A DNA stretch of 64,000 nucleotides from a virus, in the IMG/VR virus record IMGVR_UViG_3300044858_001565, positions 1-64,000 of that record. One strand, given 5' to 3'. The notes under the pieces were generated by a model. The model was not told the DNA's origin. It made no database searches and saw only the letters and a program-made list of their open reading frames with translations. Positions 1 to 54,266 of the stretch are shown here, piece after piece (within the stretch, counting starts at the first letter, position 1; each line of letters starts with the position of its first letter). Both the position numbers and the translations under genes were made by a program.

Positions 1-1
1 G

Positions 2-382
2 ATTACTTCTAATGCATCCCCTGTTGCTTGTTACTTGGAAGACTCTTTTAATGTAAAGGGTGTTTCTTGTGGATCAAATGCGGTGTTTGATGTGGCTTTC
101 CTTAGCCCAATGTCCAGCAAAGAGTATTCTGTCATACTGTCTTATGAAACAGAAGACCTGGAAGATGCGAACGCATACGCAAATCTGCAAGAATACTCCA
201 TGCTGCTTGTGCGGCGTGGAGCGTCCGATCAACACAAAACAGTGAATGGATTCCGTTTTGAGGTGCTGAAGCAGAATCCCACAAACAACGGATGGACTCT
301 GCAATCGTTCGTGTATCAATCTGGAAAGACTCAGAGAGTCCATTTCATGGTATTTGGAGGAGCCACCTTTGGATCACAGTAA
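2..382 (+). CDS. C-terminal part of an unidentified, probably structural protein (5' truncated)
   Basis: The reading frame is open to the left edge of the window, so the true start lies outside it; 126 codons are visible up to the stop. A TTG at 35 could in principle start it, but no ribosome binding site precedes it. The visible part is a soluble, mixed-charge sequence without membrane segments, ending in a hydrophobic, glycine-rich tail. It heads a run of plus-strand genes and overlaps the next one by 14 bases. I do not recognise the family. The structural guess rests only on composition and position near lysis-type genes. Confidence 0.6.
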   Translation: MTSNASPVACYLEDSFNVKGVSCGSNAVFDVAFLSPMSSKEYSVILSYETEDLEDANAYANLQEYSMLLVRRGASDQHKTVNGFRFEVLKQNPTNNGWTLQSFVYQSGKTQRVHFMVFGGATFGSQ

Positions 383-545
383 ACTAAAACCTTTTTCCTC
401 CTTCATTCGTGAGGAATTTCCTCCTCCGATGGCTGTGACACCACCCACTAATGTGGCAGACGGCACGAAGATTGCAGGGCTTCCCCCTGACCTGCCACCC
501 GTAAAGAAATCAAATATTCTGAAGAGAAAGAAGCGTAAAGCCTAA
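369..545 (+). CDS. Small proline-rich protein with basic C-terminus
   Basis: A 58-residue protein of unknown function. I choose the TTG at 369 because GGAGGAG (356-362) lies six bases upstream; another TTG at 354 has no such site. The start lies inside the end of the preceding gene, which suggests translational coupling. The middle is rich in Pro (FPPP, LPPDLPP) and the end is strongly basic (KRKKRKA). No membrane segment or known domain is visible. It sits just before a holin-like gene. Confidence 0.55.
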   Translation: MDHSKLKPFSSFIREEFPPPMAVTPPTNVADGTKIAGLPPDLPPVKKSNILKRKKRKA

Positions 546-548
546 ATA
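542..548 (+). promoter_or_regulatory. CTAAATA box, possible late promoter
   Basis: CTAAATA resembles the T4 late core TATAAATA and lies 22 bases before the ATG at 571. The bases TAAATACC (543-550) can also pair with GGTATTTA (565-572), forming a hairpin over the start codon, so the site could act in the RNA instead of, or as well as, in the DNA. Confidence 0.35.
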
Positions 549-570
549 CCTCTAGCAGAAAGGGGTATTT

Positions 571-1008
571 ATGTTTACACCAGAACTTATTTCACTTGTG
601 GGCGGTGCTGCCACGGGATTCATATTCCGTTACATGGCACAGAAGGCACAGGATCAGAAAGAGATTTTTGAACGCCTGATTGCCGCCAACAAGCAGACCA
701 CAGAGAATCAGGACAAGGCAGCACAGCGCGTTCCTATTGACCTAGGAAAGGGCATACGGCAACTCATAGTGCTTGCCATCCTGTTTGCCACTCTCCTCGC
801 TCCGTTCATCCTGCCGTTCTTTGGGCTACCCACATTCGTGGAGGTTGATGCTCGTACACCCGAAGGGCTGTTTGGACTCATTCCCGAAACCACCCGCAAA
901 TATTTCGTGGAGGTGAACGGATTCATCTACGCAAGCGAGACTCGTCAAATATTGGTGAGCATTGTGGGCTTCTACTTCGGCACTGCTGCTGCCGGAAACA
1001 AGTCTTAA
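571..1008 (+). CDS. Holin-like membrane protein
   Basis: A 145-residue protein preceded by AAAGGGG five bases before the ATG. It has a weak hydrophobic N-terminal segment (about 5-20), a charged helix (about 24-55), a strong membrane segment (about 64-86) and a further hydrophobic stretch near the C-terminus (about 126-140). Similar small proteins, with an N-terminal FTPELIS-type start, occur in marine T4-like phages, where they are usually left as hypothetical or called holins. The next gene is a lipoprotein with a membrane anchor, which fits a lysis pair. The holin call is inferred from topology and neighbourhood; a structural membrane-active protein is possible. Confidence 0.5.
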   Translation: MFTPELISLVGGAATGFIFRYMAQKAQDQKEIFERLIAANKQTTENQDKAAQRVPIDLGKGIRQLIVLAILFATLLAPFILPFFGLPTFVEVDARTPEGLFGLIPETTRKYFVEVNGFIYASETRQILVSIVGFYFGTAAAGNKS

Positions 1009-1018
1009 GGAGGCACCC

Positions 1019-1312
1019 ATGACCAGACTACTACTTCCAATACTGGCACTCGTTCTTGCGGCTTGCGAAACCGCACCAAAAATCATTCCTGATACCACTT
1101 CAGACTCCCCTATTGTGATGCGGCTCCGTCACGAAATACTCAATGGCAGCAAACTCACAAACAACTGGGGATGGATGCTGTGGTATCTTCCCGTGCTGCT
1201 GCTTGTGATAGCATGGGGATGGAAGGAGTTCTTCGGGCGCAAGCGCGAGGACTGCAAGGAAGAGGCAGAGAAGCCCGTAGAGGCGGCTCCTAGTCCTCCT
1301 CCGCAATCCTGA
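1019..1312 (+). CDS. Lipoprotein with transmembrane segment, candidate spanin
   Basis: A 97-residue protein starting at the ATG at 1019, after AAGGAGG. Residues 1-16 are a lipoprotein signal with lipobox LAAC (Cys16). A second hydrophobic segment (WGWMLWYLPVLLLVIAWGW, about 50-68) is followed by a charged, Pro-rich tail. An outer-membrane lipid anchor combined with an inner-membrane segment is the layout of unimolecular spanins (type T1 gp11), which disrupt the outer membrane in the last step of lysis. The linker of about 35 residues is short for spanning a periplasm, so this is a candidate only. The 3' end overlaps the convergent resolvase gene by 23 bases. Confidence 0.45.
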   Translation: MTRLLLPILALVLAACETAPKIIPDTTSDSPIVMRLRHEILNGSKLTNNWGWMLWYLPVLLLVIAWGWKEFFGRKREDCKEEAEKPVEAAPSPPPQS

Positions 1313-1871
1313 CATCTTCGGGCAGGCTCTCATACATCTTTTTGCAGATGTAATACGAGTCAACAATATCTGAAACAGGACTCACGGACTCTTGGCGCTT
1401 CGGTGTCAAGAGTCCTTTTAAATTGATCCCTGTCTCCAGCAGCCACGAATCGTACATGGCGTTCTTGTCTGCGTTGCCCTTGCCTGTGGCGTATTTCTTT
1501 ACTTCGGTGGGCGGGATCACCGTGACAGGAACGCTCAACTGGTACAGTTTGTATTTAAGAATGCCTGTGTTCTCTGCGATGTGGAACACCTTGCCGCTTG
1601 CGGAATACGCATAGCCTTCCAGTGCCACATGGGTGCAGCCCATCACAATGTCAATCGCCCAGTCTGCAATGGTTTCGTAGCGGTGCTGATCGTTGTCCCA
1701 ATCACTCAACCGCTCACCAAAAATATTCATGGTGCGGATCTCGGACTGCCGCTTGTTGTCGGTGAGGAAATAGAAGGAGCATCCGCTGTACGAGAACTTG
1801 CCTGTGCCGTTTGCGCGGAACAAGCAGATTGCGGGACCACACAGAGAATAGTCAATTCCTGCTATTACCAT
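1290..1871 (-). CDS. RuvC-like Holliday-junction resolvase / RNase H-fold nuclease
   Basis: A 193-residue protein with the RNase H-fold acidic residues expected of RuvC: Asp7 in AGIDYSL, Glu85 in ALEGYAY, and Asp168/Asp171 in SDIVDSYY. The stretch PPTEVKKYATGKGNADK (about 120-136) matches the conserved basic loop of phage RuvC-like proteins. Such enzymes cut branched DNA before packaging, a role T4 gives to the unrelated gp49. It is the only minus-strand gene in this plus-strand run and overlaps the spanin candidate tail to tail. Its start has little Shine-Dalgarno signal; a CTAAATA box sits five bases upstream. Confidence 0.8.
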   Translation of the reverse strand: MVIAGIDYSLCGPAICLFRANGTGKFSYSGCSFYFLTDNKRQSEIRTMNIFGERLSDWDNDQHRYETIADWAIDIVMGCTHVALEGYAYSASGKVFHIAENTGILKYKLYQLSVPVTVIPPTEVKKYATGKGNADKNAMYDSWLLETGINLKGLLTPKRQESVSPVSDIVDSYYICKKMYESLPEDVRIAEED

Positions 1872-1876
1872 ACCCT

Positions 1877-1883
1877 TATTTAG
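1877..1883 (-). promoter_or_regulatory. CTAAATA box ahead of the resolvase
   Basis: CTAAATA on the minus strand, five bases before the ATG at 1871. If used as a T4-late-type -10, transcription would begin at or next to the start codon. Confidence 0.3.
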
Positions 1884-1916
1884 GTGGTCTACATACAGGA
1901 GAGGAGGATACTATCC

Positions 1917-2102
1917 ATGATTGAAGCAGAGAATTACAATGAAACCGTGCTGATTCCCATCCTACAGGACAAGATCAATACACTGATGACGCAGGGCATC
2001 CTGCTTGAAGCCAAGTTGCAGATTGCCGAAAAGGAAAAGGCAGCACTGCAAAAGAAACTGGACGCGCTGACTGCGCCTCCTGTTGCCGAAACAGCAGAGT
2101 AA
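1917..2102 (+). CDS. Small coiled-coil protein (family B, copy 1)
   Basis: A 61-residue protein starting at ATG 1917, nine bases after GAGGAGG (1901-1907). It opens with YNETVLIPILQDK, followed by a heptad-like charged helix (LLEAKLQIAEKEKAALQKKL). Two clear relatives lie in the fibre locus at 11654-11881 and 22286-22507, each just upstream of a long shaft gene. This copy lacks their C-terminal basic stretch and DG..Y ending. Function unknown; the shared context suggests an assembly factor or minor virion component. It ends directly before a hairpin terminator. Confidence 0.65.
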   Translation: MIEAENYNETVLIPILQDKINTLMTQGILLEAKLQIAEKEKAALQKKLDALTAPPVAETAE

Positions 2103-2105
2103 AGC

Positions 2106-2125
2106 AAACCCCCGAAAGGGGGTTT
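2106..2125 (+). terminator. Rho-independent terminator, probably bidirectional
   Basis: Stem AAACCCCC (2106-2113), GAAA tetraloop, GGGGGTTT (2118-2125), followed on the plus strand by GTTGTTTT. It lies between two convergent genes, the coiled-coil gene and the protease, and the symmetric stem could end transcripts from both sides. Confidence 0.8.
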
Positions 2126-2131
2126 GTTGTT

Positions 2132-3538
2132 TTAACAGTCTCCCCATGCGGCTAATAGGATTCCTAAATCAATTCCATCAACTCTGTTATCTTTATTCAA
2201 ATCGGAGTCCTGATCCGATCCTCCCCACCCACCGAGCAGTATTCCCAAGTCGTTTCCGTTCACAACGGAATCCCTATTGATGTCCGCAGGACAGAGTGTT
2301 GGCAGAACGGATCGCAAAGCCTTTCCTGCGTCAATCATTCCCCACCCTGTAAAAATATCGTAGCCTGCCGTTCCCATGTCATCTGCCGTGGTATTCATAG
2401 CACTTTCTACTTGGGCAGGAGTTAGATTGGGATTTACTGAAAGAAGTAGTGCAGCAACACCTGCCGCATACGGAGAAGAGAATGATGTTCCGTCTATGGT
2501 CACCCAGTTTCCGCTGTTGTATCCTGAATTTCCGGTTCGGTCTGTTGTGTATATGGATTGACCTGGAGCAACAAAGGCAATTCCATTTCCGTAACTAGAA
2601 AAGGATGATCGTGTTCCATTTCGGGAAGAAGAGCCTACGGCATTCACGGTGCTGAGTCTGGCAGGAAACCCCATTCCATCGGTTCCTCCGTTTCCTGCAC
2701 TCGCAAAGTGAACGATTCCTGCGTTTCTGGTTGCGGAATACGCGCTGCTCATGGCATTGGATGTGCTGCCGTAATCGTTGCTGTTGTTTGTTACTCGTAT
2801 TCCGTTGCTTGCTGCCCAATTCAGTGCATTGACGGTCCAACTAGTCTGTCCGCTCCATGATCCGTTGCAAGGAGTGCTTGCAATTCCTACCTTTGCCGAA
2901 ACAACGGTGCAACCAGGTGCAATTCCTACGGTTCCAGATGAATTGTTTATCCGTGCAGACACGCATCCTGCCACCGCTGTTCCGTGATTGTCGCATGAAT
3001 TGGTGGGGCTTCCTCCTGCCACACCGTTCACCGCTCCTGTGGTGAAGTCTCGTCCTGTCTGTGTGTTCAAATCAGGATGGGTTTCTTCCACTCCGGTTTC
3101 TATCACCATTACCTTGATGTTGGGGTTTCCTGTTGTGATGCTCCATGCGTCAAGCGCACCCATGTCCCATCCTGCAACCCCACCCGCAGAGCCAGTGTTC
3201 CGCAATCCCCAGCACTGAGAAAATCCTGTATCGTTTGGTGGGGGGAATGACTGCCGTTCAACCGTGATCCATCGGTCTTCTTCAACAAATTCCACGCTTG
3301 GATTGGTGGACAGTTGTGCCACCGCTCTCTTCGCGGATCGGATATCCGTCATGTCCAGCAGTGTCAGGTTTGGGATATTTGAATAGTGGGTAGCCGACTC
3401 CACCCCACTGATAGACGACAGTATTTCGTTTTTGTTTGCGGAGTCTTTCCATTTCACAAACACGGTGTCTATGGGTGGAGCCGTGTCTACTGTTGGAGGC
3501 GAGTTCAGGTAAAGTGCGGCAAGTAGTGGTAGAACCAT
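2132..3538 (-). CDS. Secreted subtilisin-like (S8) serine protease with C-terminal dockerin-like repeats
   Basis: A 468-residue protein. I choose the ATG at 3538 because AAAGGAG lies just upstream. It has a short hydrophobic signal-like N-terminus, an I9-type inhibitory propeptide (about 24-90) and an S8 domain with His186 (HGTAVAG), the oxyanion Asn283 (ASAGNGG) and Ser352 (GTSFSSP). The catalytic Asp position (VIDTG in the family) is Glu147 here (VMVIETG). Residues 416-468 hold two EF-hand-like repeats with LGILLxxWG endings, as in type I dockerins of Planctomycetota. Such proteases are secreted and degrade or process proteins, here perhaps host surface layers. The tail points to acquisition from a host. 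A late-type promoter and a terminator flank it. Confidence 0.85.
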   Translation of the reverse strand: MVLPLLAALYLNSPPTVDTAPPIDTVFVKWKDSANKNEILSSISGVESATHYSNIPNLTLLDMTDIRSAKRAVAQLSTNPSVEFVEEDRWITVERQSFPPPNDTGFSQCWGLRNTGSAGGVAGWDMGALDAWSITTGNPNIKVMVIETGVEETHPDLNTQTGRDFTTGAVNGVAGGSPTNSCDNHGTAVAGCVSARINNSSGTVGIAPGCTVVSAKVGIASTPCNGSWSGQTSWTVNALNWAASNGIRVTNNSNDYGSTSNAMSSAYSATRNAGIVHFASAGNGGTDGMGFPARLSTVNAVGSSSRNGTRSSFSSYGNGIAFVAPGQSIYTTDRTGNSGYNSGNWVTIDGTSFSSPYAAGVAALLLSVNPNLTPAQVESAMNTTADDMGTAGYDIFTGWGMIDAGKALRSVLPTLCPADINRDSVVNGNDLGILLGGWGGSDQDSDLNKDNRVDGIDLGILLAAWGDC

Positions 3539-3595
3539 GATGATCTCCTTTGCCCGTATTACGAAATAACCCAATACAAAGTTCTCTCCATTTTG

Positions 3596-3603
3596 TATTT
3601 ATA
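3596..3603 (-). promoter_or_regulatory. TATAAATA, T4-type late promoter for the protease
   Basis: An exact match to the T4 late core on the minus strand, 57 bases upstream of the protease ATG and directly after the terminator of the reductase gene. That location, between a probable early gene and a probable late gene, supports it. Another TATAAATA, formed by the last codons of the reductase (3670-3677), lies upstream of the hairpin and is less likely to be used. Confidence 0.5.
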
Positions 3604-3611
3604 GAAAAGAA

Positions 3612-3636
3612 ACAACCCCCTCTAGAAGGGGGTTGT
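3612..3636 (-). terminator. Rho-independent terminator after the ribonucleotide reductase
   Basis: Ten-base-pair stem (ACAACCCCCT with AGGGGGTTGT) and a five-base loop; read on the minus strand it is followed by TTTCTTTTCT. It lies 31 bases after the reductase stop codon. Confidence 0.8.
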
Positions 3637-3666
3637 CGGGCGGGAGATGCTATCTCCTGCGGGGTA

Positions 3667-5586
3667 TTAAGTATTTATATCAACAACTTCGCACTTGTCA
3701 CCCGAACACGCAAAGGTTTGGGTGCCCTTTGTGGTGTCTTCTTTTTCAAACTTCGTCAACTCCGTCCAATCAATTTCCTTTGGAAGACGGGCTGCTGCTG
3801 CTTCGTACTGCTCCTGTGTGCAGTCCTGATACGGAGCCTGCTGATAAGTGTGGTCGGAGTGTGGCAGGAACGAGATGCCGCTGATCTCGTCAAAGTGCGA
3901 GTAAACCCACGCACCCACTTCCATCCATTCATGCTCACGAACCGTCACCGTGATGCTGGGCTTGTGTTCGCACCAGTGCCGCTGATAGGTGAGCCACAAC
4001 TCCAAGTGTTCGATTGCAGTCATGTCGTTGCGGGTCACGGAACCCACAGCCTTCATGGGGAACGAGAACACCATTGTGTGGTCGGGACGCATCACACACG
4101 GCTCCGCAGGAATCCCCTTGTCAATCATAAACTGGCACATGGGGTCTTTGCGGTCGGCACGGACGGTGCGGATGTAATACTCGTTGTGCCGTGCGTGGAT
4201 GCCTGACGCAGAATCGGTCAACTGCGACACCGTACCGCTTGGCTTTACACAAGTAATAGCCGCAGCGGGAGCGATTCCGATCCGCTTTGCCCACTCCTTG
4301 TTTGTCTCAACGGCATGAGCCTTCAGGGATTCAAGCAGGGCATCAAGTTCCCCACCCTGCTTACGCATCATTGCGTTGTCAAGAATGCCTGTGAGAGAAA
4401 CGCCAAGCAGCCGCTCCTCTTCGCAGTTCTTGCGCCAGTCGCTGCTGAGATACGGAAAGTGGGTAAGCGAGGCTTGCCATGTGCCCAAGATAGCCGCAAG
4501 GCGAACCTTTCGCTTCAGGGATTCTGCGGTGTCCTCTGCGCGGACAATCACTTCGCTCAGGTTGCAGAACTCCTTGTCTCGGAGAATGATCTCGGAGCAG
4601 GGATTGGTGCCGAACTCGTAGGTGTGGTCGCGGCGGTCGCCCAACTTCGCAACAGTCTTTTGTGCAGCCTGTCGGTTGAAGATGCCGCGCTCACCGCTCT
4701 TGCTCTTGTAGAGCGACACCCACTCTTCCATGAAGGTGCCGATCTCGGGCTTCTCCTTGTAGGCAACAGAGTTGTTTGCTAGTGCCCGTTGGGGATTCTC
4801 CAACCACCACTGTCCCACCTTAGCATCGCGCATTCGCTCGTCGGTGAGATTCGATAGCGAGATAAGAGCCGACCGACGAACTCCGCCGACCACGACAATC
4901 TCTGCAATCTTACAGACAATATCGTGGCACTCAATGGAAGTGAGTTTTCTGCCAGCACTCTTCTTAAAAGTACTGACGGTAAATCGGAACAGGTCTTCAA
5001 GCGGCTGCGGTCCACTTGCTCGTCCACCGAAAGTCTTGAGGCGCGCACCAGCAGGACGAATGTGAGACAAATCCCATCGGGGGATTTGACCTCCAATAAG
5101 TAGGGATACAAGTTCACGGAAGGCTTTTGCCCAACCTTCCTTGGAGTCCTTGACCACAATGACTGTATCACTGTTGGTAAACTCTTCAGCAATTGTAGGA
5201 AGTTTTTCAACATACTGGCGCTCCACGCTGAAGCCTACTCCGGTTCCGCACATGAGAACATACAGAATCTCATCAAATGCGCGAACCTTGTTTACAGCAA
5301 TGTATGAGCAGTTGTAACCAGCGGTGTTGTCCCGCTTCAGGGCTTCACCTGCGGTCATCAGCGACCGCATGGACGGCATGACCTCAAGATTCAGCACTGC
5401 TTCACGCAATTCTTCGCGGACTGCCTTATTTATCTTCACGCCCCCCTCGGTGAACTGCTCGTCAAAGAAGCGGAAGTAGCGATCCACCGTTTCCTCCCAA
5501 GACTCGCGGCGCTTTTCGGATTCAAGCCAGCGAGAGTAACGAGACAGATGGATGAACTCTTGGTAGAGTGTGGGAAGTCGCTTCAT
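3667..5586 (-). CDS. nrdJ: Adenosylcobalamin-dependent (class II) ribonucleoside-triphosphate reductase
   Basis: A 639-residue protein that reduces ribonucleotides to deoxyribonucleotides for phage DNA synthesis using a B12-generated radical. It resembles the monomeric Lactobacillus leichmannii enzyme (739 residues) but is about 100 residues shorter. Visible catalytic residues: Cys93 (GYNCSY), Cys330 and Cys341 in GTNPCSE...EFCNLSE with the family's 11-residue spacing and Glu332, and the C-terminal shuttle pair Cys627/Cys632 (ACSGDKC). The start follows AGGAG at seven bases. It is oxygen-independent and needs cobalamin from the host. It stands alone between two terminators. With ThyX and dUTPase elsewhere it forms the phage's dNTP supply. 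Confidence 0.92.
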   Translation of the reverse strand: MKRLPTLYQEFIHLSRYSRWLESEKRRESWEETVDRYFRFFDEQFTEGGVKINKAVREELREAVLNLEVMPSMRSLMTAGEALKRDNTAGYNCSYIAVNKVRAFDEILYVLMCGTGVGFSVERQYVEKLPTIAEEFTNSDTVIVVKDSKEGWAKAFRELVSLLIGGQIPRWDLSHIRPAGARLKTFGGRASGPQPLEDLFRFTVSTFKKSAGRKLTSIECHDIVCKIAEIVVVGGVRRSALISLSNLTDERMRDAKVGQWWLENPQRALANNSVAYKEKPEIGTFMEEWVSLYKSKSGERGIFNRQAAQKTVAKLGDRRDHTYEFGTNPCSEIILRDKEFCNLSEVIVRAEDTAESLKRKVRLAAILGTWQASLTHFPYLSSDWRKNCEEERLLGVSLTGILDNAMMRKQGGELDALLESLKAHAVETNKEWAKRIGIAPAAAITCVKPSGTVSQLTDSASGIHARHNEYYIRTVRADRKDPMCQFMIDKGIPAEPCVMRPDHTMVFSFPMKAVGSVTRNDMTAIEHLELWLTYQRHWCEHKPSITVTVREHEWMEVGAWVYSHFDEISGISFLPHSDHTYQQAPYQDCTQEQYEAAAARLPKEIDWTELTKFEKEDTTKGTQTFACSGDKCEVVDINT

Positions 5587-5625
5587 GGTTTTACTCCTGT
5601 TTTGTTGGGTAGATTATGTAGTCAC

Positions 5626-5631
5626 AGTATA
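5626..5631 (-). promoter_or_regulatory. TATACT, possible -10 for the reductase
   Basis: GCTATACT on the minus strand, 39 bases upstream of the ATG at 5586. The same octamer occurs ahead of uvsE and dut. No clear -35 is seen here because the expected place falls inside the upstream terminator hairpin. Confidence 0.3.
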
Positions 5632-5637
5632 GCGAAA

Positions 5638-5657
5638 AGAGAGGCTTGCGCCTCTCT
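5638..5657 (-). terminator. Rho-independent terminator at the end of the fibre locus
   Basis: Stem AGAGAGGC with GCCTCTCT and a TTGC loop, followed on the minus strand by TTTTCG. It closes the long fibre operon 27 bases after its last stop codon. Confidence 0.75.
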
Positions 5658-5684
5658 AAAGTATTCGCTGCGAGTATTTTAGTA

Positions 5685-6008
5685 TCAGGTAATTTCTAAC
5701 AAAGAAACAAAAACATGGACAAATCCGGTGAGTCCTGCTCTTGCTCTTAAATAATCATTTGCTTCTAGCACAATAGGAGAGTCCAGTGCCTGAAATGTTG
5801 TGGCAATAGGAACAGCAGCATTTGTTATAAGCGAACACGCTGTAGAACCTCGTACTGCCTCAAGAGTAACTTCCACTCCACCAAGGTTGCTCACATTGCT
5901 GAAGTTTACATTGTTGACGATTGCTGTTCCTGAACACAATCCATTGTAGATGTTTGTGTTTGCAGTGGTTCCAAGTAGTGTCATAAAACTTTTGTATGTC
6001 TCTGGCAT
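5685..6008 (-). CDS. Small beta-rich virion protein (family F, copy 1)
   Basis: A 107-residue protein beginning MPETYKSF and ending FVSLLEIT. Two paralogues (14780-15103 and 43143-43463) share the same start, the ALDxPIVLE core and the LEIT ending. Small phage structural proteins with this pattern (an IVN-type strand, then LE..D.L.A.AG, then LEIT) are common in tailed phages and are probably beta-sandwich virion components. Each copy is the last or near-last gene of an adhesin cassette. AAGGA precedes the start. The exact role is unknown; a fibre cap or decoration is inference. Confidence 0.75.
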   Translation of the reverse strand: MPETYKSFMTLLGTTANTNIYNGLCSGTAIVNNVNFSNVSNLGGVEVTLEAVRGSTACSLITNAAVPIATTFQALDSPIVLEANDYLRARAGLTGFVHVFVSLLEIT

Positions 6009-6011
6009 AAT

Positions 6012-6278
6012 TTATCCTTGTTCTTGTGGCGGTTCGTAATGCACGGTCATGTCTGTATATGTGGGTTCTTCACTCGGGGGAGGTGGATCTGTTATTCCGT
6101 GAAACGCCAGTGCGTCTTCGCGTGAATCAAACCACCTCCACCCATGCACAGGATACTCGTATTCTTCCCTGTGTTCTCTGCTGATGGAGTAATTAGGAGA
6201 GTCCACGAAGTTTGGTGCGTGAAGCAGTCCCGAAATAGTTCCATCTGTTTCCAATAGGTAAAATCCTGAAGTGTCCAT
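6012..6278 (-). CDS. Small protein following the adhesin (family E, copy 1)
   Basis: An 88-residue protein with a paralogue at 43456-43668. Shared features: DTSGFY.LE at the N-terminus, PNFV, and YPV.GW.WF.SR.DAL..GIT in the second half. Short proteins of this type occur beside fibre genes of T4-like cyanophages; their function is unknown. The C-terminal 25 residues are Pro/Glu-rich and absent from the paralogue. GGAGGAG precedes the ATG, and CATAAATA (6288-6295) overlaps that region. It could be a small chaperone or a fibre component. Confidence 0.7.
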   Translation of the reverse strand: MDTSGFYLLETDGTISGLLHAPNFVDSPNYSISREHREEYEYPVHGWRWFDSREDALAFHGITDPPPPSEEPTYTDMTVHYEPPQEQG

Positions 6279-6296
6279 TGCTCCTCCTATTTATGC

Positions 6297-7949
6297 TCAA
6301 GCAACCAAGCCTCCTCCAGTGAGGGTCACAGTCCATCCTTTTGATGTGGCTATTCCTGCACAACAGCCTCCAGTTCCCCAATTTCCTGTGAGATGAATAT
6401 TGTATGTGGTTCCCGACACTGTTGGAAGTCCAGTAAATATTTCGTTTATGGCAGTCGCAGACAGCATACAGCCAGCGAGAGAAATTGATGTGCGTAGATT
6501 GCTTGCCTCAAATCTTCGGAGGTGATAGTTTTGTCTGAACATACTGTTGGAGTTTGCAGTTCTTCCGTATCCGTTGTTCACTACCGCTCCAGCAGAAAAT
6601 CCTTTTACATGGACAGTCTTGCTGCCTAGCAGCATATTCTGAAACTGTGTTCCATTGGTATAGTCCATTGCAGGGAACACCATTACCTGATTGTATGTGA
6701 ACGCAGACTGCCAGTCACGCACATTTCCAGTGCTTAATCCTTCGGGAATTATTTTCAATCGTTTGCAGTTTGCTGCAAATCCGTTCAGGGATCTTGCATT
6801 CTGAAAATTGAACTTTGGAATTTCACGAAGGCTTGCACAGTTTTGGAACATGGAGGCAAATGTGCCACCGTTTACAGTGTTGTAGAGCGGAACGGTGGTG
6901 ATGTTTGCACAGCCCTGAAACATGGAAGTGAACAGGGTCACATTGGATGTGTCTATCTCTGGAGCCTCGCGCAGGGAATAGCACGCATTGAACATCGCAC
7001 TTGTGTTTGTTGCACTGCTAGTATTCATTTTCGGAAGGTGTTCTAGCAGGACACAACTCTGAAATGTCTGGTCAAACGATGTTGATTTGGAGAAGTCAAG
7101 AGGAGGAATGGTTTTTACTTTGGAGCAACCGTTGAATGCACGGAGGAAACTAGTTACCTTCCCTGTATCTGCCCACGGAATGCGGGTCATCAGGCGGCAC
7201 CCTTCAAAAAAAGAGTTCATGTTTGTCAGGTTTCTTGTATATTTTTCCAAGCCTGCAAACCAACGGAGAGAGTATCCATTGAAGAACGCTGATTGACCGC
7301 TCGTTGGGACGGGCATTTCTGTCGCAACTTCTATGAGGGCAAGGTGCTTCATTCCCACTCTCCACCCGTCAGAGAACACACTGCTTATTCCCACCCCTGC
7401 CATCTTGATGTATGCCCACATATGACTTGCATTGGGAGAGTTTGCAATGCTTGGAAGGGTGACTCCTGCTGCCGAGAAGCGTGAGTTCAGTGTTATGGTG
7501 GTAAGAGTTGCCCCTTGTGGGTGTGGCTGTGGATACGCCCGTATGAGAACTTGCCTGTATCCTTCGGGAGTGTCTGTGCCTGGAAAATCCGCCCAGTTGT
7601 ATTGGCGCTGTGCAACTGTGTTTGAGGCGTGTGAAGTGGTGACTCCGTTTCCCCAATCCACGGTGTATGTTCTGCCTGTTCCTGACATTGCAAGGAGAAA
7701 CGCTGCGTAGTTGGAGTCCGCAGACGCTCCAGAGTTGCCAGACGCTCCTTTTGCAAGATAGAATATGCCAGCAAACTCCTGTGCCGTTGGTCCCATTGCA
7801 GGCATTGGTATCCAGTAAGTGGGATACATCCACGGATCGCTTTTTGCGTATTCGCTGTACAGTTTGTTCACGGTCATTATTCCTTGGAGAGGGTGGATCT
7901 CCGAGGTTCCCACATAACCGCCATTTGATCTGTTCATTGAAAACTTCAT
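6297..7949 (-). CDS. Receptor-binding adhesin with BspA-type leucine-rich repeats (family D, copy 2)
   Basis: A 550-residue protein. The ATG at 7949 overlaps the upstream stop as ATGA, which fixes the start. The N-terminus carries the family's NGGYVG anchor motif. Residues of about 80-170 match the paralogues ([21 protein letters not shown]). The rest is BspA-like (DUF285) repeats of about 22-24 residues with patterns such as FNGCSKVKTIPPLDFS. BspA repeats are surface-binding modules in bacteria and protists; in a fibre they most likely bind the host surface. It ends in VTLTGGG, like the TVTG ends of its relatives. It lies directly after a second adhesin, so this cassette has two. Confidence 0.8.
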   Translation of the reverse strand: MKFSMNRSNGGYVGTSEIHPLQGIMTVNKLYSEYAKSDPWMYPTYWIPMPAMGPTAQEFAGIFYLAKGASGNSGASADSNYAAFLLAMSGTGRTYTVDWGNGVTTSHASNTVAQRQYNWADFPGTDTPEGYRQVLIRAYPQPHPQGATLTTITLNSRFSAAGVTLPSIANSPNASHMWAYIKMAGVGISSVFSDGWRVGMKHLALIEVATEMPVPTSGQSAFFNGYSLRWFAGLEKYTRNLTNMNSFFEGCRLMTRIPWADTGKVTSFLRAFNGCSKVKTIPPLDFSKSTSFDQTFQSCVLLEHLPKMNTSSATNTSAMFNACYSLREAPEIDTSNVTLFTSMFQGCANITTVPLYNTVNGGTFASMFQNCASLREIPKFNFQNARSLNGFAANCKRLKIIPEGLSTGNVRDWQSAFTYNQVMVFPAMDYTNGTQFQNMLLGSKTVHVKGFSAGAVVNNGYGRTANSNSMFRQNYHLRRFEASNLRTSISLAGCMLSATAINEIFTGLPTVSGTTYNIHLTGNWGTGGCCAGIATSKGWTVTLTGGGLVA

Positions 7950-9691
7950 CCAGTCACCGTCCATCCTTTTGCAGTTGCTATGGAGCGATCACAGGCAGCA
8001 GCGCCCCAGTTGTTCGTTATATTTATGGTGCAAGTTCCCTGACTCGTCACCCCTCCAAGACCAGTGAATATTCTGTTCAGTTCTGTTGGAGACAACACGC
8101 ATCCGCTGCTTGCAGAGCCTGTAAAATTGAGGCTTTTTCTTACATTTTCCATTGTTGCTCTGCGTATGTCAGGACACGCGTTGAATGTGTTAAACAGAGG
8201 ACCAGTGAATGAAAGAGTGGACCCACTCAAGTTGTTTGGAAACTTGAATCCATCTGGCAGATGGGTGAGTGCTGTGCAATTGTTGAACATGGTATTAAAA
8301 GTAGCGGATGTGCTGGAAAAACTGTAGGCAGGCACACTAATGAGATTAAGGCAACCGTCGTACATGGAAGAAAAGGCTGTTCCAGAAAGAGTTATGCCTC
8401 CGGTTGGTGTCCTTACTCGCGGAGCGTATCTGAGGTTGGAGCAACTGGCGAACAGGTTTTGCAGGTTCACCGTGACAGCACAGGTTATGCCTTCCACTTC
8501 GGTGAGTGTGAAGCACGAATTGAACAGGTTTGTTCCTACAGTGCAGTTGGGTGCATTGATGTGACCAACCCTTTCAAGACTGTCACAGTTTTGGAATGTG
8601 CTGGAAAGTGTTGTGGCAGCGTTGAATTGCCACGGTGGAAACTCACGAATACACCTCTGCCGCAGAAAGCAAGAGGACCAGTCGGTAATGAGTGCGGTGT
8701 TCCACATGGGGAGATTGCTCAATATTCCGCCAGGAGCCACAGAAGGCATAGGTGTGTCGCCAATTCCCACAGATTCTGTAAATCCCTGTTGCATATTTGT
8801 GACTTTGCTTGTCACGATGGGAGGGGCTTTTACTAGTCCTTTTGCATCACCTGCCCAATACTGAAGAGTAAGGAGCGCAGGGGTCTTCAGCAGAGGGAGC
8901 GAGCGGATGTTGATTGCACCACTGATAAAGTGGCGGAAGTCTGTCTGTCGTTCAGTCCAGTTCGTTCCCGTGATCCGCTCCACACCAGTGCAAGCGTGGA
9001 GGAATCCTGGAACATTTCCGAATCCCGTGAGACTGGTCATGTGCCCGATCATGTTCACTCTTTGCAGGAGGAAATGGCGGGTGCTGTTGTTGCCCGTGAA
9101 AGACGATCCGCCTATGATTACGCTTGAGAGGTTTGGTCCAGACATTGCCACATCAAGCCATTGGGTGGTTGACTTGAAATCTATGGTTGCTACCCCTGCT
9201 TGGGAGAAAGCCCTGTTCAGATTCACGGTTGTAAGAGTCTGTCCAGTCTGTGGATACGCTTGAATCACCACCTGACGGTATCCATCAGGTGTGAGTGTGG
9301 AAGCAGGCACATCCACCCAGTTGTATTGCCGCTGTGCATCGGTATTGGAGGTGTGTGCGGTGGTGACACCGTTGGGGTTTGCTGGTGTGGTTATTCCCCA
9401 ATCAACAATGTAGTTTCCCGAACAACGGAAAGACACAAAGTTGGAGTCAGCGGTGGAACCTGTGTTGCCAGATGCACCTTGAAATATAGCCACAAGCCCC
9501 ACAAATCTCTGCGTTCCCTCTGCGGGAACAGGAAGCGGCAGCCAGTAGGAAGGACGATTCCAGTCCTGAACCTCTCGCTCCACCAGATGGCATTTGTTTG
9601 GAGTAATAACACCGTATCCGTCCGTGTATCGGAGTGGATACCGTGCGCCTCCAACATATCCATTGTTCATTCGGCTGTTTCGTCTTCTCAT
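7946..9691 (-). CDS. Receptor-binding adhesin with BspA-type leucine-rich repeats (family D, copy 1)
   Basis: A 581-residue protein starting at ATG 9691, which overlaps the stop of the shaft gene as ATGA. The N-terminus RMNNGYVGGARYP matches the anchor motif of the other adhesins. A shared domain (YIVDWG...TTAHTSNTDAQRQYNW) spans about 70-150. BspA-type repeats (for example FNSCFTLTEVEG, FNNCTALTHLP) follow to the C-terminus, which ends TVTG. Its C-terminal 50 residues ([15 protein letters not shown], then NNWGAAACDRSIATAKGW) are nearly the same as in the adhesin at 43679-45913. It probably forms the distal tip on the preceding shaft protein. Confidence 0.8.
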   Translation of the reverse strand: MRRRNSRMNNGYVGGARYPLRYTDGYGVITPNKCHLVEREVQDWNRPSYWLPLPVPAEGTQRFVGLVAIFQGASGNTGSTADSNFVSFRCSGNYIVDWGITTPANPNGVTTAHTSNTDAQRQYNWVDVPASTLTPDGYRQVVIQAYPQTGQTLTTVNLNRAFSQAGVATIDFKSTTQWLDVAMSGPNLSSVIIGGSSFTGNNSTRHFLLQRVNMIGHMTSLTGFGNVPGFLHACTGVERITGTNWTERQTDFRHFISGAINIRSLPLLKTPALLTLQYWAGDAKGLVKAPPIVTSKVTNMQQGFTESVGIGDTPMPSVAPGGILSNLPMWNTALITDWSSCFLRQRCIREFPPWQFNAATTLSSTFQNCDSLERVGHINAPNCTVGTNLFNSCFTLTEVEGITCAVTVNLQNLFASCSNLRYAPRVRTPTGGITLSGTAFSSMYDGCLNLISVPAYSFSSTSATFNTMFNNCTALTHLPDGFKFPNNLSGSTLSFTGPLFNTFNACPDIRRATMENVRKSLNFTGSASSGCVLSPTELNRIFTGLGGVTSQGTCTINITNNWGAAACDRSIATAKGWTVTG

Positions 9692-11631
9692 ATAAACCAA
9701 TGCCTCGCCACGCTTGTGCCTGTAACCGCACCAGTCAATCCATTAAAACTTGTCACTCCATCTCCTCCTCCACCTCCTCCCGATGCTGCAATGGTGATGC
9801 CGCCAGCAACAGAAGAAGTAATAGTCACATTGGAACCTGCATTAAGAGTGATTCCACCAGAAATACCATTGAGAACTGTCACTACCCCGTTGGTGAGTGC
9901 CACCGTTCCAGTTTGGTTGGGAAAGATAATTGTTTTGTTGCTCGTTGCGGTATTTGGTGCGGATAGCGTAGTGGTGAATGCGTTGTTTGCATTTCCAAAA
10001 ATTATGTCTGATGGCTCTGTTATCTCTGAGTCGGATCGTGTTCCTAGATACAGATTTCCACCAGATATTTGAACCTGACCGGTTCCACTATCCGAGTTTT
10101 GTATCACTACTTTAGGAACAGTTCCACCAACTCCAATTCCGACTTGCTGTGGTTCAAAGATTAATTGACCGTATGGGTTGAACCACAGGGTTCTTGCAGT
10201 GGTTGATGTTCCAGAAAGAACCGTGAGTGTGGCACCAGGACTGACAATGGTGCTGACAGCCAAAGATGAATTGAAAGTGGCACCGCTGCCCACATAGAGG
10301 AATCCTGCATTGGTTATTCCTGCACTTGAGGAGTTTACGGTAAGAGTCTGTGAAGATTGCAATCCAGCAACACTCATGCAGATTCCACCAGCAAAAGATT
10401 GGGTGGCAGTGAATGTATTTGTTACCGCAGCACACACGCCACCAACAGCACCAGTCAATCCATTGAAAGACTGAACGCCGATGTTGGTGATTGTGACCGT
10501 ACCAGTGTTTGCGTTTACGCTGATACCTGTGCCAGCAACGGCTCGGGTGACACCAGCATTGGTGATTGTGACTGAACCGGTGGCACCCGACACGGAAATT
10601 CCGTCACCTGCCACCGCAGCGGAGACACCTTGCACCGAACCAGTCCTACCATTGAACGAGGTGACCGTATCTGCAACAATTTCGTTTTGGACAAATGCGG
10701 TAGTGGCAATCTGTGTGGTATTGGTACCAACGGCAGCAGTTGTTGATGCGGGAGTTCCTGTGAAGGTCGGAGATGCCAACAATGCATAACTTGCTGCTGC
10801 TACTCCCCCAAGTTGGGTAGAGTTGGTTGCTGTTGTGGCGGTGGTTGCGTTTCCGCTCAGAGGACCGCTGAAACCTGTTGCAGATGACTGTAGACCTGTG
10901 AATGTGTTGGCACCAAGTGATGCACCCGTCACCGCACCTGTTGCGCCGTTGAATGAATGAACTCCGGTGTTCTGCACAACAACTGCGCCAGTGGTGGGAG
11001 AAACAGATATCCCATTTCCTGAACCAGACACAGAAGAAACTGCTCCGCCTCCGCCACCACCAACAAGATTCGTGCCTACACTTGCACTGACACCAGACAG
11101 ATCAATGTAAACACCGCGATTGGTTCCACCACTTTCAAAGATACGCAATCTGTTTTGGTAAACATCAATTGCTACACCACCAGTCAAACTGGTGTTTGTG
11201 GCAGGCAAACCAAAATCTATTTGACCACCCTCGTCACCACCAACCGTCAGCATTCGGAGGTTTTGGGCATTCAATTGAACAGAGAAAGTTCCGCCGTTTG
11301 CGCTTACGCCAGAATTGAATGATTGTAGTGCGGTGAATGTGTTGGCTTGAGCGGCACAAACACCACCAACGGCACCGGTCAAACCATTGAAAGATGCCAC
11401 AAAGTTTCGCCGTGCATATTCGTATACCGCGTTCTGTGTGGGAACTCGGTTTTGTGAAGCAGCAGAACCTGCACCCATGTCCACGCCACCGGTTATTTCT
11501 CCGCCCATCCATCGCACCGCTGCGGTGTTTCCAATAAAGAGTCTGCTGGTAGCGGTATCAAAAGCAGGCTCACCAACGGTCAGACCGGTGGGAGTTGTGG
11601 TTCCTCTTTTGAATTGTATCTGTGTTGGCAA
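9688..11631 (-). CDS. Repetitive tail-fibre shaft protein (family C, copy 1)
   Basis: A 647-residue protein with a TTG start at 11631, eight bases after AGGAG. The N-terminus (IQFKRGTTTPTGLTVGEPAFDTA...LFIGN) is of the type found at the N-terminus of many phage fibres, Mtd-like. The body is made of fibre repeats rich in Gly, Ala, Ser and Thr, with SFNGLTGAVGG units and one copy of the SPTFTGTPASTTAAVGT block that recurs five times in the gene at 16988-22261. The C-terminus is RHWFI; the other two shafts also end in a Trp-Phe motif. It is followed with a four-base overlap by the adhesin it probably carries. Confidence 0.82.
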   Translation of the reverse strand: MPTQIQFKRGTTTPTGLTVGEPAFDTATSRLFIGNTAAVRWMGGEITGGVDMGAGSAASQNRVPTQNAVYEYARRNFVASFNGLTGAVGGVCAAQANTFTALQSFNSGVSANGGTFSVQLNAQNLRMLTVGGDEGGQIDFGLPATNTSLTGGVAIDVYQNRLRIFESGGTNRGVYIDLSGVSASVGTNLVGGGGGGAVSSVSGSGNGISVSPTTGAVVVQNTGVHSFNGATGAVTGASLGANTFTGLQSSATGFSGPLSGNATTATTATNSTQLGGVAAASYALLASPTFTGTPASTTAAVGTNTTQIATTAFVQNEIVADTVTSFNGRTGSVQGVSAAVAGDGISVSGATGSVTITNAGVTRAVAGTGISVNANTGTVTITNIGVQSFNGLTGAVGGVCAAVTNTFTATQSFAGGICMSVAGLQSSQTLTVNSSSAGITNAGFLYVGSGATFNSSLAVSTIVSPGATLTVLSGTSTTARTLWFNPYGQLIFEPQQVGIGVGGTVPKVVIQNSDSGTGQVQISGGNLYLGTRSDSEITEPSDIIFGNANNAFTTTLSAPNTATSNKTIIFPNQTGTVALTNGVVTVLNGISGGITLNAGSNVTITSSVAGGITIAASGGGGGGDGVTSFNGLTGAVTGTSVARHWFI

Positions 11632-11650
11632 CGGCGGCTCTCCTGACTAG

Positions 11651-11657
11651 TATTTAG
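11651..11657 (-). promoter_or_regulatory. CTAAATA box ahead of a shaft gene
   Basis: Minus-strand CTAAATA, partly formed by the stop codon of the coiled-coil gene, 19 bases before the TTG start of the shaft gene. The same box precedes the paralogous shaft gene at 22261. Confidence 0.3.
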
Positions 11658-11881
11658 TAGGTGGAGCCATCAAGTACGGGTGCGTCTTTTTTCCGCTTCT
11701 TGCCCTCGGCGGCTTCCAATTTTGCAATTCGTGCGGCTAGTTCGTTTGCTTGCTTCAGGAGGGCTTCCTTTTCCTGTTCAAGCAGGATGGTCTTTGCTTC
11801 AAGCATGATGTTCTGCGACAGCAGTTCGGCAACGCGCTTATTCAGCAGGGGGATAAGAATGGTTTCATTTGGATTACTCAT
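11654..11881 (-). CDS. Small coiled-coil protein (family B, copy 2)
   Basis: A 75-residue protein with AAAGGA eight bases before the ATG. It has an N-terminal PNETILIPLLNKR motif, a long charged helix (about 20-57, EAKTILLEQEKEALLKQ), a basic stretch (GKKRKKD) and the ending VLDGSTY. It aligns throughout with the protein at 22286-22507 and with the shorter one at 1917-2102. In both fibre blocks it sits between a family A structural gene and a family C shaft gene. A role in trimerisation or as a fibre assembly adaptor is inference. Confidence 0.7.
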   Translation of the reverse strand: MSNPNETILIPLLNKRVAELLSQNIMLEAKTILLEQEKEALLKQANELAARIAKLEAAEGKKRKKDAPVLDGSTY

Positions 11882-11911
11882 GGATATAGTCCTTTCACTA
11901 TTGGATCAAAA

Positions 11912-13336
11912 TCAAGTATACGAACCACCGTCTATGGCAGTAATGGTGACTGCTCCGCTAGTCACGGTGAAGTTAAACGAATCAAAACTGGCTAGACCCT
12001 TCACGGATGATGTGGCATTCTGTATTCTGTATTTACCGCTTGAGATTGTTGATACGCCGTTACCGCTAGCATCGGCAATCAGGAGTTCTCCCCATGCAAA
12101 AAGTCCTGCGCCATCTGCTTGAATCAAGTGTCCTTGTGTATTGCTTACTGCAAGTTTGGATAGAGCCGATCCTGCGGCAGCAGCATACAGTATGTCGCCC
12201 TTTGCATACGAACTGAATCCCGTGCCTCCATATGTTGCGCCAACCACGGTTCCTTGCCACACACCTGTAGAAATGGTTCCAACCTTTGTGAGGTTGGAGT
12301 TTACAATATTTGTCCCAAGGCTTGCACCATCAATGACTACCGTTCCATTGATGTAGTAGGCAGGATTTACGGACTTGGTAAGGTTTATGTCTTGGTTGAA
12401 GTTCCATGCAGCAGCAAGAGTGGTGCCTGATGTGGTGTTTGACCAAACAATGGTCTTGTCTGTTGCGCCCTTCAGGGAGATTCCACCGCCATCAGCCGTG
12501 GTGTCTGTGGGAGAGGTGACGCTTCCCAACTCAATGTTCTTGTCATCAACCGAGATGGTTGTGGAGTTTATGGTGGTTGTGGTGCCGTTGACCACAAAGT
12601 TTCCTGCCACCGTGAGGGTGGCACCCACATACAGATTGGAGTCAAATGTAGAACCGCCGTATGCCTGAATGCTGGTAGTGTTCAGGCTGCTGCTTGTGAT
12701 TCCCTGTGTGGCTGTGAGTAGACGGGAGAACGATGCGGTGGCTCCGTTGAGGGTGCCGGATACAGTGACTCCTGCGGCAAATCGTGCAACTCCACCAACA
12801 TCAAGCGTTGACTCTAGAGTGGTTCCACCAACGACATCAAGAATTCCACCAATATCAACTCTTCCTCCAAGCGTTGCTCCACCGTTTACCTGTAGTGTTC
12901 CACCGAAGGTAGAGCCGATGGACGAATACAGATAAGATGTGGTGATTCCTTGGCTTGCAGTCAACAGTCTGCTAAATGTGGCAGTCGCTCCGTCTACGGT
13001 GCCAGAGAATGTTACTCCGCCGCTGAATGTGTTTGTGCCTGTGAATGTGTTGTTGAGCGGCAGGATGTTTGTTCCTGTGCCCATCTGAAATTCTGTTGTC
13101 CATCCGCTGTTCGCTGTGGTGCCAATCAAGGCATAGTATGCAGACACTCCGCTCACATACACCATCATGCCGCGAGTACGGCGACGGTCAAAGATGTTGT
13201 TCAGATCAGCAGTGGTTCCAACGGTTCGCAGACCACCAAGCCCGTGGGCGGTGTCAAACAGGGGAAAAGTCTGTGTGTCCGTGAAAGGACTTATCTGACT
13301 GTTGATTCTTACATTTGTGCTTGGAAAGTCTGCCAT
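11912..13336 (-). CDS. T4-like phage virion structural protein (family A, copy 1)
   Basis: A 474-residue fibre-like protein. It contains the pattern VNGTTTTINSTTISVDDKN, then IELG, a nucleotide-free beta module familiar from structural proteins of T4-like marine phages, followed by GISLKGATDKTIVW, and it ends AIDGGSYT. The first half contains imperfect repeats (FSRLLTASQGIT and FSRLLTATQGIT). A paralogue is at 22525-24552. It lies between a family G fibre gene and the coiled-coil gene, as the paralogue does. Ribosome binding site weak (AGGGA). Confidence 0.78.
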   Translation of the reverse strand: MADFPSTNVRINSQISPFTDTQTFPLFDTAHGLGGLRTVGTTADLNNIFDRRRTRGMMVYVSGVSAYYALIGTTANSGWTTEFQMGTGTNILPLNNTFTGTNTFSGGVTFSGTVDGATATFSRLLTASQGITTSYLYSSIGSTFGGTLQVNGGATLGGRVDIGGILDVVGGTTLESTLDVGGVARFAAGVTVSGTLNGATASFSRLLTATQGITSSSLNTTSIQAYGGSTFDSNLYVGATLTVAGNFVVNGTTTTINSTTISVDDKNIELGSVTSPTDTTADGGGISLKGATDKTIVWSNTTSGTTLAAAWNFNQDINLTKSVNPAYYINGTVVIDGASLGTNIVNSNLTKVGTISTGVWQGTVVGATYGGTGFSSYAKGDILYAAAAGSALSKLAVSNTQGHLIQADGAGLFAWGELLIADASGNGVSTISSGKYRIQNATSSVKGLASFDSFNFTVTSGAVTITAIDGGSYT

Positions 13337-40625: not shown

Positions 40626-41012
40626 TCACCCCCGCATCGCCTTCACGATCTTACGCCAATACTTCAGGGTTCCCGACAGGCGGTGCCCCTTTGGACCGCC
40701 GTTGTGAATCCGTGCCAACTGCTCAACAGTCGCGCCCTTCGGGGCATACCGCGTCCAATACGCACGGATGATCCGCTCCGAATACGCCTTGTCCATGCAG
40801 TCACGATACGAGCCGCCGATGGAAGGATCGTGTTCCACAGCGTCCTGCCAGTACTCGCGCCAAATCTGATACGGACCAATGGCGCGTCCACCGTCACCCA
40901 CAAGATTCTTGCCACTGGTGGACTCCACCGCATACATGGCATCAAGCAGAGGACGGGTATCAACGGTGGGGGGAACAAGGCACAGAACTGCGGACAGAAT
41001 CAAACCAAACAT
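40626..41012 (-). CDS. Invertebrate-type lysozyme-like endolysin candidate with signal peptide
   Basis: A 128-residue protein. Residues 1-14 form a hydrophobic export signal (MFGLILSAVLCLVPP). The mature part follows the destabilase/i-type lysozyme pattern: Glu30 in YAVESTSGKN, GDGGRAIGPYQI (39-50), WREYW, and RIHNGGPKG (101-109). The many disulfide cysteines of animal i-type lysozymes are missing, as expected for a bacterial or phage form. It probably cleaves peptidoglycan, with the signal sending it to the periplasm. A soluble lytic transglycosylase is the main alternative. It overlaps uvsE by 13 bases. Confidence 0.7.
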   Translation of the reverse strand: MFGLILSAVLCLVPPTVDTRPLLDAMYAVESTSGKNLVGDGGRAIGPYQIWREYWQDAVEHDPSIGGSYRDCMDKAYSERIIRAYWTRYAPKGATVEQLARIHNGGPKGHRLSGTLKYWRKIVKAMRG

Positions 41013-47988: not shown

Positions 47989-48125
47989 TACAATGCCTTT
48001 TCCTTGTTTAAAATATTTTGGTGACGATTCTGACTCTTTACCAAAACCCTATGCTTTCGTGTCCTGCGAGTGGCACTGCTTGCAAATCCACCACGACCTT
48101 TTCCAGACGGAGAATTTCTAGCCAT
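47988..48125 (-). CDS. 45-residue basic protein heading adhesin cassette III
   Basis: A short gene defined by TAATG overlaps at both ends. Its product (MARNSPSGKGRGGF at the start, then TRRTRKHRV) is Arg/Lys-rich and probably binds nucleic acid or is disordered. No family recognised. A TATAAATA box lies 37 bases upstream, in the end of the glycosyltransferase gene. Confidence 0.6.
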   Translation of the reverse strand: MARNSPSGKGRGGFASSATRRTRKHRVLVKSQNRHQNILNKEKAL

Positions 48126-49348: not shown

Positions 49349-49371
49349 TACGATTCTCCTGTTTATTTCAA

Positions 49372-49959
49372 TCAAGACCACTCATGGACTATGATGTTAT
49401 TTAGCCTCAATTGATCTATGAGTTCTTTCTTTTCGGCTATCTTTTTTTCGTGATTTGGATACCAGAATCTATCGTGCCACTCAATGTAGATTTCCTTGAC
49501 ACAGTTTAGTCTGCTGCTCTTTAGCAAATCCGATAGGAACAAAAACTCTGCTCCTTCTATATCACACTTTATCTTTATGTTATCAGTTTCGCTTGCATCA
49601 CAAACATATAGAAGTGTCTCCGCACAAATACTATTGACTGGAATTTGCGACCAAGAAAAAGATGCTCCATAAACAACATCCATCTCTGGAGGAGACTCTA
49701 GAGCGTTACAAGCATTACTTGTTTTATTTTTCTCTATGTTGAACGGAACTATTCCGTCAGTATCAAGAACAGCACAGTTATAAACGGTGAGACTGGAAAA
49801 TCGGTTTCGTATGACATCTGCTCGGTCTAATGCTTTCACATAGACATATGGATTTGCCTCAAAACTATAAACAGAATATGTGTGGTCTATTGCTCCCGTA
49901 GACAGTATGCTTTCTAGACCTTCTAATCCATGACAACCTAAATCTATAAACTTGTTCAC
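49372..49959 (-). CDS. FkbM-type methyltransferase
   Basis: A 195-residue protein. I choose the GTG at 49959 because TTGGAGG lies eight bases upstream. Motif I is FIDLGCHGLEG; EANPYVY follows, and KCDIEGAEF and EIYIEWHD are typical of FkbM-family O-methyltransferases that act on sugars. Part of the AT-rich glycan island; likely methylates a sugar added by the neighbouring transferases. Confidence 0.78.
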   Translation of the reverse strand: MNKFIDLGCHGLEGLESILSTGAIDHTYSVYSFEANPYVYVKALDRADVIRNRFSSLTVYNCAVLDTDGIVPFNIEKNKTSNACNALESPPEMDVVYGASFSWSQIPVNSICAETLLYVCDASETDNIKIKCDIEGAEFLFLSDLLKSSRLNCVKEIYIEWHDRFWYPNHEKKIAEKKELIDQLRLNNIIVHEWS

Positions 49960-49978
49960 TTGTATATCCTCCAAGAGG

Positions 49979-50911: not shown

Positions 50912-50938
50912 GTAAACCTCTACTCTAAATGACGATAA

Positions 50939-53198: not shown

Positions 53199-53212
53199 AT
53201 GAAACTCTCTTT

Positions 53213-53908: not shown

Positions 53909-54266
53909 ATGATTTTTCCTCAAACAAAGAAGATCCTGTTTGCTCGTTTATCTTTCTTTTTATTGAAGCGCGAGCATCGTTGACAATGTAAACCTTTCTA
54001 GCCAACTCAATAAACTCTTGATCGAATTCTTTCGCTCTTTCTTTGTCTCTTATTGCGTCTTCAATTATCCACAACTCGGCGTTCACGGACTTTAGTTGTT
54101 GAAACAGAGGATGATCTGTTTCCATAAAAGAATTCATGCCAGGTAGTATGGCATTCAGTTCACTGATGACATTAGAAATCTTTTCTGGATTGGATAGTCT
54201 TTCTTTCTTTATCATCAGAATAGAAACCTTGTCTGCTATCTCTCCATTAGAAACTTCTATCTTCAT
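53895..54266 (-). CDS. DUF6165-type protein
   Basis: A 123-residue protein with ATG at 54266 overlapping the previous stop (ATGA). The start MKIEVSNGEIADKVSIL and the helical ELWIIEDAIRDKE and FIELARKVYIVND match the DUF6165 family, often found in glycan gene clusters. Mostly helical; function unknown. Confidence 0.7.
   Translation of the reverse strand: MKIEVSNGEIADKVSILMIKKERLSNPEKISNVISELNAILPGMNSFMETDHPLFQQLKSVNAELWIIEDAIRDKERAKEFDQEFIELARKVYIVNDARASIKRKINEQTGSSLFEEKSYAAY

Follow-up and report, generated by a model that had tools for sequence, protein, structure and literature searches.

Why would a T4-like phage encode a protease that ends in a dockerin, a module known mainly from cellulosome-type complexes, in which dockerins serve as plugs that fix bacterial enzymes to surface scaffolds? 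The gene lies in the window, by which we mean the whole stretch of 64,000 nucleotides analysed here (positions 1 to 64,000 of IMGVR_UViG_3300044858_001565); the full record is an IMG/VR contig of 80,516 bp and is probably partial. Its assignment to the T4-like phages, already made in the preliminary description, is borne out by strong PHROG matches (E 1e-56 to 0) for homologues of gp17, gp18, gp20, gp23, gp41, gp43, gp46 and UvsX. Our leading reading, to which we give an even chance, is that the gene encodes an exported protease docked on a scaffold at the host surface and constitutes an accessory cassette of T4-like phages.

Architecture of the protease and its dockerin tail

The protease starts at the ATG at 3538, preceded by the Shine-Dalgarno sequence AAGGAGATCATC, and the TTG at 3574 is not the true start (Table 1). 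Pfam PF00082 matches the protein at E 5.4e-43 (147.8 bits; cut-off 21.8) on a record with T4-like PHROG genes, in agreement with the earlier claim of a phage-encoded protease. The hydrophobic leader contains no Lys or Arg in the window member and begins with MK in clade-B relatives. In the full-length AlphaFold model, the prodomain-like region is confident, with elements in the order beta-alpha-beta-beta-alpha-beta, and the catalytic domain is poorly predicted; a check for an I9-type prodomain with PF22148 gave a weak match under the cut-off (17.2 bits). Across an alignment of 16 representatives, His185, Ser352 and Asn283 are invariant, whereas the Asp-His-Ser triad is incomplete, with Glu replacing Asp in all 16; Asp is retained at this site, as part of a DTG motif, in the closest faecal phage-like record. 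Because the substitution is found in all relatives, the activity of the protease may be low or altered.

With the S8 subtilases (PF00082), the protein thus shares the fold family, the His, Ser and Asn residues, the prodomain-like region and an export leader, and it differs from them in the Glu at the catalytic Asp site, the C-terminal dockerin and the phage origin. Mycosin (TIGR03921) and dentilisin PrtP (NF033595) are its closest NCBIfam models, and it scores far under the cut-off of each. An S8 domain is also encoded by Bacillus and Staphylococcus phages (PHROG 3677), but identity to these subtilases is about 36% or less over the domain, and the tail has no significant match there.

The reading frame ends in CPADINRDSVVNGNDLGILLGGWGGSDQDSDLNKDNRVDGIDLGILLAAWGDC, and the tail reads CPADINRD...LGILLGGWG...DLNKD...LGILLAAWGDC in the translation of the minus-strand frame, which agrees exactly with the wording and place first noted. 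The identification of these 53 residues as a dockerin-like tail with two calcium-binding repeats is likewise supported. Ligand positions 1, 3, 5 and 12 are filled in both loops (D419/N421/D423/D430 and D446/N448/D450/D457). The 'GC-type dockerin' model NF041540, whose name points to a C-terminal site ending in Cys, matched the tail at E 2.6e-4 (21.3 bits) in a library scan and at 1.7e-6 (25.3 bits) in a search of the record itself, both under the curated cut-off of 29; the match spans residues 417-466, numbered on a 469-residue version of the protease. The tails of the closest relatives pass the same cut-off at 34-38 bits (38.4 bits in G003 and G010). PF00404 gave no match to the window tail at E <= 0.001. 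Furthermore, the top PDB sequence matches of a profile built from the phage tails are dockerins (6kg9, 7.9e-5), and AlphaFold modelled the tail alone with a pLDDT of 95.1. Foldseek placed 2y3n_B first for this model (TM 0.89, rmsd 1.4 Å), and ranks 1-22 in the PDB are all dockerin-containing structures; the Foldseek E-value is only 1.9e-3, a level to be expected of such a short domain. The match of the tail to dockerins is therefore far beyond chance.

The tail shares with NF041540 the Cys-x-x-Asp opener, the two calcium repeats and the C-terminal W-G-x-C, the window member differing by its score below the cut-off. Type I and type II cellulosome dockerins (2y3n, 2ozn, 6kg9) have the fold and the calcium ligands in common with it, whereas the phage tail has LLxxWG helices and framing cysteines and sits on a phage protease, next to which no cohesin was found. 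The residues through which cellulosomal dockerins classically contact cohesin are not obvious in the tail.

Table 1. Features of the protease locus (coordinates in the window).
Feature	Position	Strand	Basis or remark
Gene for 468-aa subtilisin-like (S8) protease with C-terminal dockerin	2132..3538	-	PF00082, Shine-Dalgarno, translation, about 30 viral relatives
Stop codon	2132-2134	-	
Short N-terminal hydrophobic leader, signal-peptide-like	3494..3538	-	Sequence; model helix 2-11
Prodomain-like region, residues 24-95	3254..3469	-	Model pLDDT about 70-90
Catalytic subtilase domain	2330..3148	-	PF00082; subtilisin E and Carlsberg alignments
Glu147, at the catalytic Asp32 site of subtilisins	3098..3100	-	Subtilisin alignments; invariant in 16 relatives
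Catalytic His185	2984..2986	-	Alignment, translation
Oxyanion-hole Asn283	2690..2692	-	Alignment, translation
Catalytic Ser352	2483..2485	-	Alignment, translation
C-terminal dockerin, residues 416-468, framed by Cys416 and Cys468	2135..2293	-	NF041540; PDB dockerins; model
Calcium loop 1, D419-x-N-x-D423-...-D430	2249..2284	-	D419, D423, D430 invariant
Calcium loop 2, D446-x-N-x-D450-...-D457	2168..2203	-	D446, D450, D457 invariant
GAAC-N17-CGTA element, ECF-sigma-promoter-like	3560..3584	-	21 nt before start codon
TATAAATA, T4 late-promoter consensus	3596..3603	-	Second upstream copy at 3672-3679
Terminator-like hairpin after RNR gene, upstream of protease	3611..3637	-	12-bp stem and T-rich tail
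Terminator-like hairpin downstream of protease	2105..2126	-	9-bp stem

Conservation, exchange and transcription of the gene

Two scans yielded 28 viral loci encoding the protease, to which two probable ones were added later, giving about 30. The tail is C-terminal every time and never absent. Among the 16 aligned relatives, Cys416, Cys468 and the six loop aspartates are invariant, as are the key Trp and Gly residues of the helices, while loop position 3 is Asn or Thr; W-G-x-C occurs in all 16 and is followed by P or QA in some. The median dN/dS is about 0.07 for the catalytic domain and 0.21 for the tail, indicating that both are under purifying selection.

The neighbours of the gene differ in most relatives, without synteny: it adjoins gp19- and gp23-like genes in G005 and G011, and elsewhere clamp-loader genes or RNR. 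Moreover, the protease tree groups the window phage with G003 and G002 (100/100), in conflict with the gp23 capsid tree, which groups G003 with G005 and G011 (95/82). The lack of synteny and the conflict between trees identify an accessory gene that moves as a unit between T4-like lineages. The G+C content of the phages that carry it ranges from 34 to 50%, which suggests several hosts. A dockerin is not common to the whole clade closest in gp23: of 50 such records, the majority being fragments, 2 have one.

Upstream of the gene, the pattern (G/A)AAC-N16-18-CGTA is present in 20 of 21 relatives (13 distinct upstreams, several of the 21 being near-duplicates), against a null of 0.7% per shuffled 80-mer, and lies 18-25 nt from the start codon with a single exception at 38 nt. 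In this record, it is the sole such site 5-60 bp ahead of a gene. Promoters of ECF sigma factors carry AAC at -35 and CGT at -10; judged by its motifs and its 16-18 spacer, the element would be of the ECF-sigma-promoter type. The T4 late-promoter consensus occurs 5 times in the window, compared with an expectation of 0.56. Lying between two terminator-like hairpins, the protease gene appears to be its own transcription unit. No tRNA was found in the window, and Rfam gave no match in window positions 1-12000.

Several other genes drew our attention. A destabilase-type lysozyme with a signal-like leader (PF05497; window 40626-41012, minus strand) carries LVPPTVDT, which resembles NSPPTVDT in the protease leader; its G003 homologue is without this motif. 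In G003, a trypsin-like protease with a lipoprotein-like leader (122417-123214; PF13365, 67.5 bits) lies immediately upstream of the dockerin protease, and the related G003:119266-120033 and G004:3939-4688 have signal-like leaders and, by eye, the look of outer-membrane barrels, with no Pfam match above the cut-off. The window also holds two adjacent DUF285 (BspA-like) repeat proteins (6297-9691, minus strand), of which the first alone exceeds the Pfam cut-off, and a minus-strand region of lower G+C (48125-56293; 36-45%) with about a dozen putative sugar- or surface-modification genes, judged by their N-termini.

Dockerins in other phage proteins and competing explanations

A scan with the tail alignment found matches in at least 94 viral contigs. 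Virion proteins are among the carriers: a baseplate-wedge-like frame of 2149 residues with about 18 tandem dockerin stretches (L128:629-7078, IMGVR_UViG_3300032302_000043; PF00404, 323 bits), a T4-type tail tube protein carrying a dockerin half-module close to the N-terminus (L152:2964-3821; phrog_45) and a tail fibre with a dockerin module (L151). The module is thus not limited to secreted proteins. It also occurs in G002:50026-53283, which is collagen-like and carries GACC repeats, in a further protein at G011:18257-19336 and, with a signal-like leader and Dockerin_1 above the cut-off, at G005:15833-16594; modules in these three phages pass PF00404 (G005 35.2, G011 28.4 and G002 23.8 bits). 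The N-terminal part of the G005 protein looks cohesin-like by eye only and is without a Pfam match. Proteins of roughly 200 residues that begin with a signal-like leader and end in a dockerin form a family recurring in many viral contigs (L103, L105, L110, L132 and others); BFVD entry A0A516MFS6 (199 aa), which matches the tail model at TM 0.89, may belong to it. Two proteins of 440-470 residues without a family match (L147:3827-5239 and L153:3863-5185) have an N-terminal dockerin half-module and a body that is enzyme-like by eye.

This spread allows the tail to be read as a generic calcium-stabilised structural cap, shared among aquatic phages and uninformative about scaffold or phylum. The modules sit at varied positions in many unrelated phage proteins, general dockerin models also match genomes chosen as relatives of a Patescibacteria MAG, the carriers vary widely in G+C, and the nearest named phages are cyanophages (portal 53%, DNA polymerase 49% identity). 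Nevertheless, the calcium ligands, the helix Trp and Gly residues and the framing cysteines do not vary, the tail is never missing from the protease or placed elsewhere than at its C-terminus, and a search of 50,697 phage records gave it no significant match. We consider such a cap rather unlikely.

The virion-borne dockerins also raise an unlikely alternative, in which the dockerin fixes the protease to the particle and the enzyme cuts the protein coat of the host at entry. Beyond the baseplate, tail tube and fibre proteins of other phages, the gp19- and gp23-like neighbours in G005 and G011 and the late-promoter consensus upstream of the window gene are in keeping with a place in the virion. 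The signal-like leader and the prodomain-like region argue against it, as do the absence of synteny with tail genes, the clamp-loader and RNR neighbours elsewhere, the lack of a second dockerin module in this phage record and the lack of cohesin (PF00963) in 49 phage records.

That the protein is a pseudo-protease or a low-activity decoy, in which the change from Asp to Glu kills or slows catalysis and leaves a binder or blocker at the host surface, seems very improbable. The uniform Glu, set against the DTG of the faecal record, favours it; however, it is usually His or Ser that a dead enzyme has lost, and here both are conserved, along with the oxyanion Asn and the prodomain-like region, and the catalytic domain has the low dN/dS given above. 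Finally, a tail worded like bacterial secreted proteins might reflect host DNA placed in a viral contig by errors of assembly or binning. Such contamination is rejected because about 30 viral contigs contain the gene, several of them together with T4-like genes (gp17, gp18, gp20, gp21 or gp23), head genes included; its probability is negligible.

Docking partner, host and implications

Taken together, the leader, the catalytic residues, the prodomain-like region and the dockerin suggest that the enzyme is exported and docks beyond the cytoplasm. In the docked-protease reading, the hydrophobic leader would direct the protease, probably through the host Sec system, out of the cytoplasm of the infected cell, and removal of the prodomain would mature it. 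The dockerin, with calcium bound and probably held shut by a disulfide between Cys416 and Cys468, would then plug into a cohesin-type receptor on a surface or extracellular protein scaffold of the host, where the docked protease might cut host surface proteins and so help lysis and release, or stop further phage adsorption. Since the 49 phage records contain no cohesin, the docking partner would be host-encoded, most likely a host cohesin. Against the docked-protease reading stand the uniform Glu in place of the triad Asp, the short leader of the window member, which has no positive charge, the absence of cohesin from these phage records, the want of obvious cohesin-contact residues, the missed NF041540 and PF00404 cut-offs and the dockerins of virion proteins.

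The preliminary description had taken the wording of the tail as a clue to a planctomycete host. We hold a Planctomycetota host to be a plausible lead and lean towards it, on a resemblance of the tail to secreted planctomycete proteins, the name of the GC-type model, PEP-CTERM-like and GACC features in phages that carry the protease, and a report of cohesin/dockerin peptidase machinery in freshwater Phycisphaerae (Nemodlikiaceae; PMC6461901); another scaffold-bearing phylum may serve as well. The 'Planctosome' complexes proposed there are likewise freshwater and dockerin-attached, but their peptidases are bacterial M12B and M14 zinc enzymes, whereas the present one is a phage serine protease. 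The PEP-CTERM-like ends score 13-14.6 bits, below the Pfam cut-off, and a PEP-CTERM search of the 50 nearest gp23 relatives gave no match, the controls being equally silent. Three phage proteins of 130-151 residues, homologous to one another (G004:9514-9969, G005:3394-3849 and G006:4719-5111), have such ends, in the form VPAPS/G-hydrophobic-RK.

At 49-53% identity in portal and polymerase, the cyanophages are too distant to assign a host. Searches of plasmids gave no planctomycete match: the tail had no significant match among 72,556 plasmids, nor was there one on Phycisphaera plasmid pPSMK1, the only planctomycete sequence covered. From genome contigs, a single scan returned a distant subtilase of Patescibacteria and nothing else. 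NF041540 cannot serve as a marker of planctomycetes alone, since it matches 2 of 59 genomes chosen as relatives of a Patescibacteria MAG; the one of these two that was read is without Cys-framed ends and LLxxWG helix wording. The open-access literature yielded no dockerin-bearing planctomycete phage, and one coliphage paper mentions merely a dockerin-type carbohydrate-binding module. To our knowledge, few phages of freshwater planctomycetes have been described.

A broader proposal, possible though doubtful, is that a group of aquatic T4-like phages has co-opted the host's cohesin-dockerin plug, placing it on exported enzymes and, in further lineages, on tail tube, baseplate and fibre, so that both enzymes and particles dock on the host scaffold, with the protease as a mobile cassette whose dedicated promoter a host ECF (stress) sigma factor would recognise. 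A conserved, exchanged dockerin protease, together with the tail dockerins, would mean that cohesin-dockerin pairs take part in infection and would supply a marker with which to trace the phages of scaffold-building bacteria, possibly freshwater planctomycetes.
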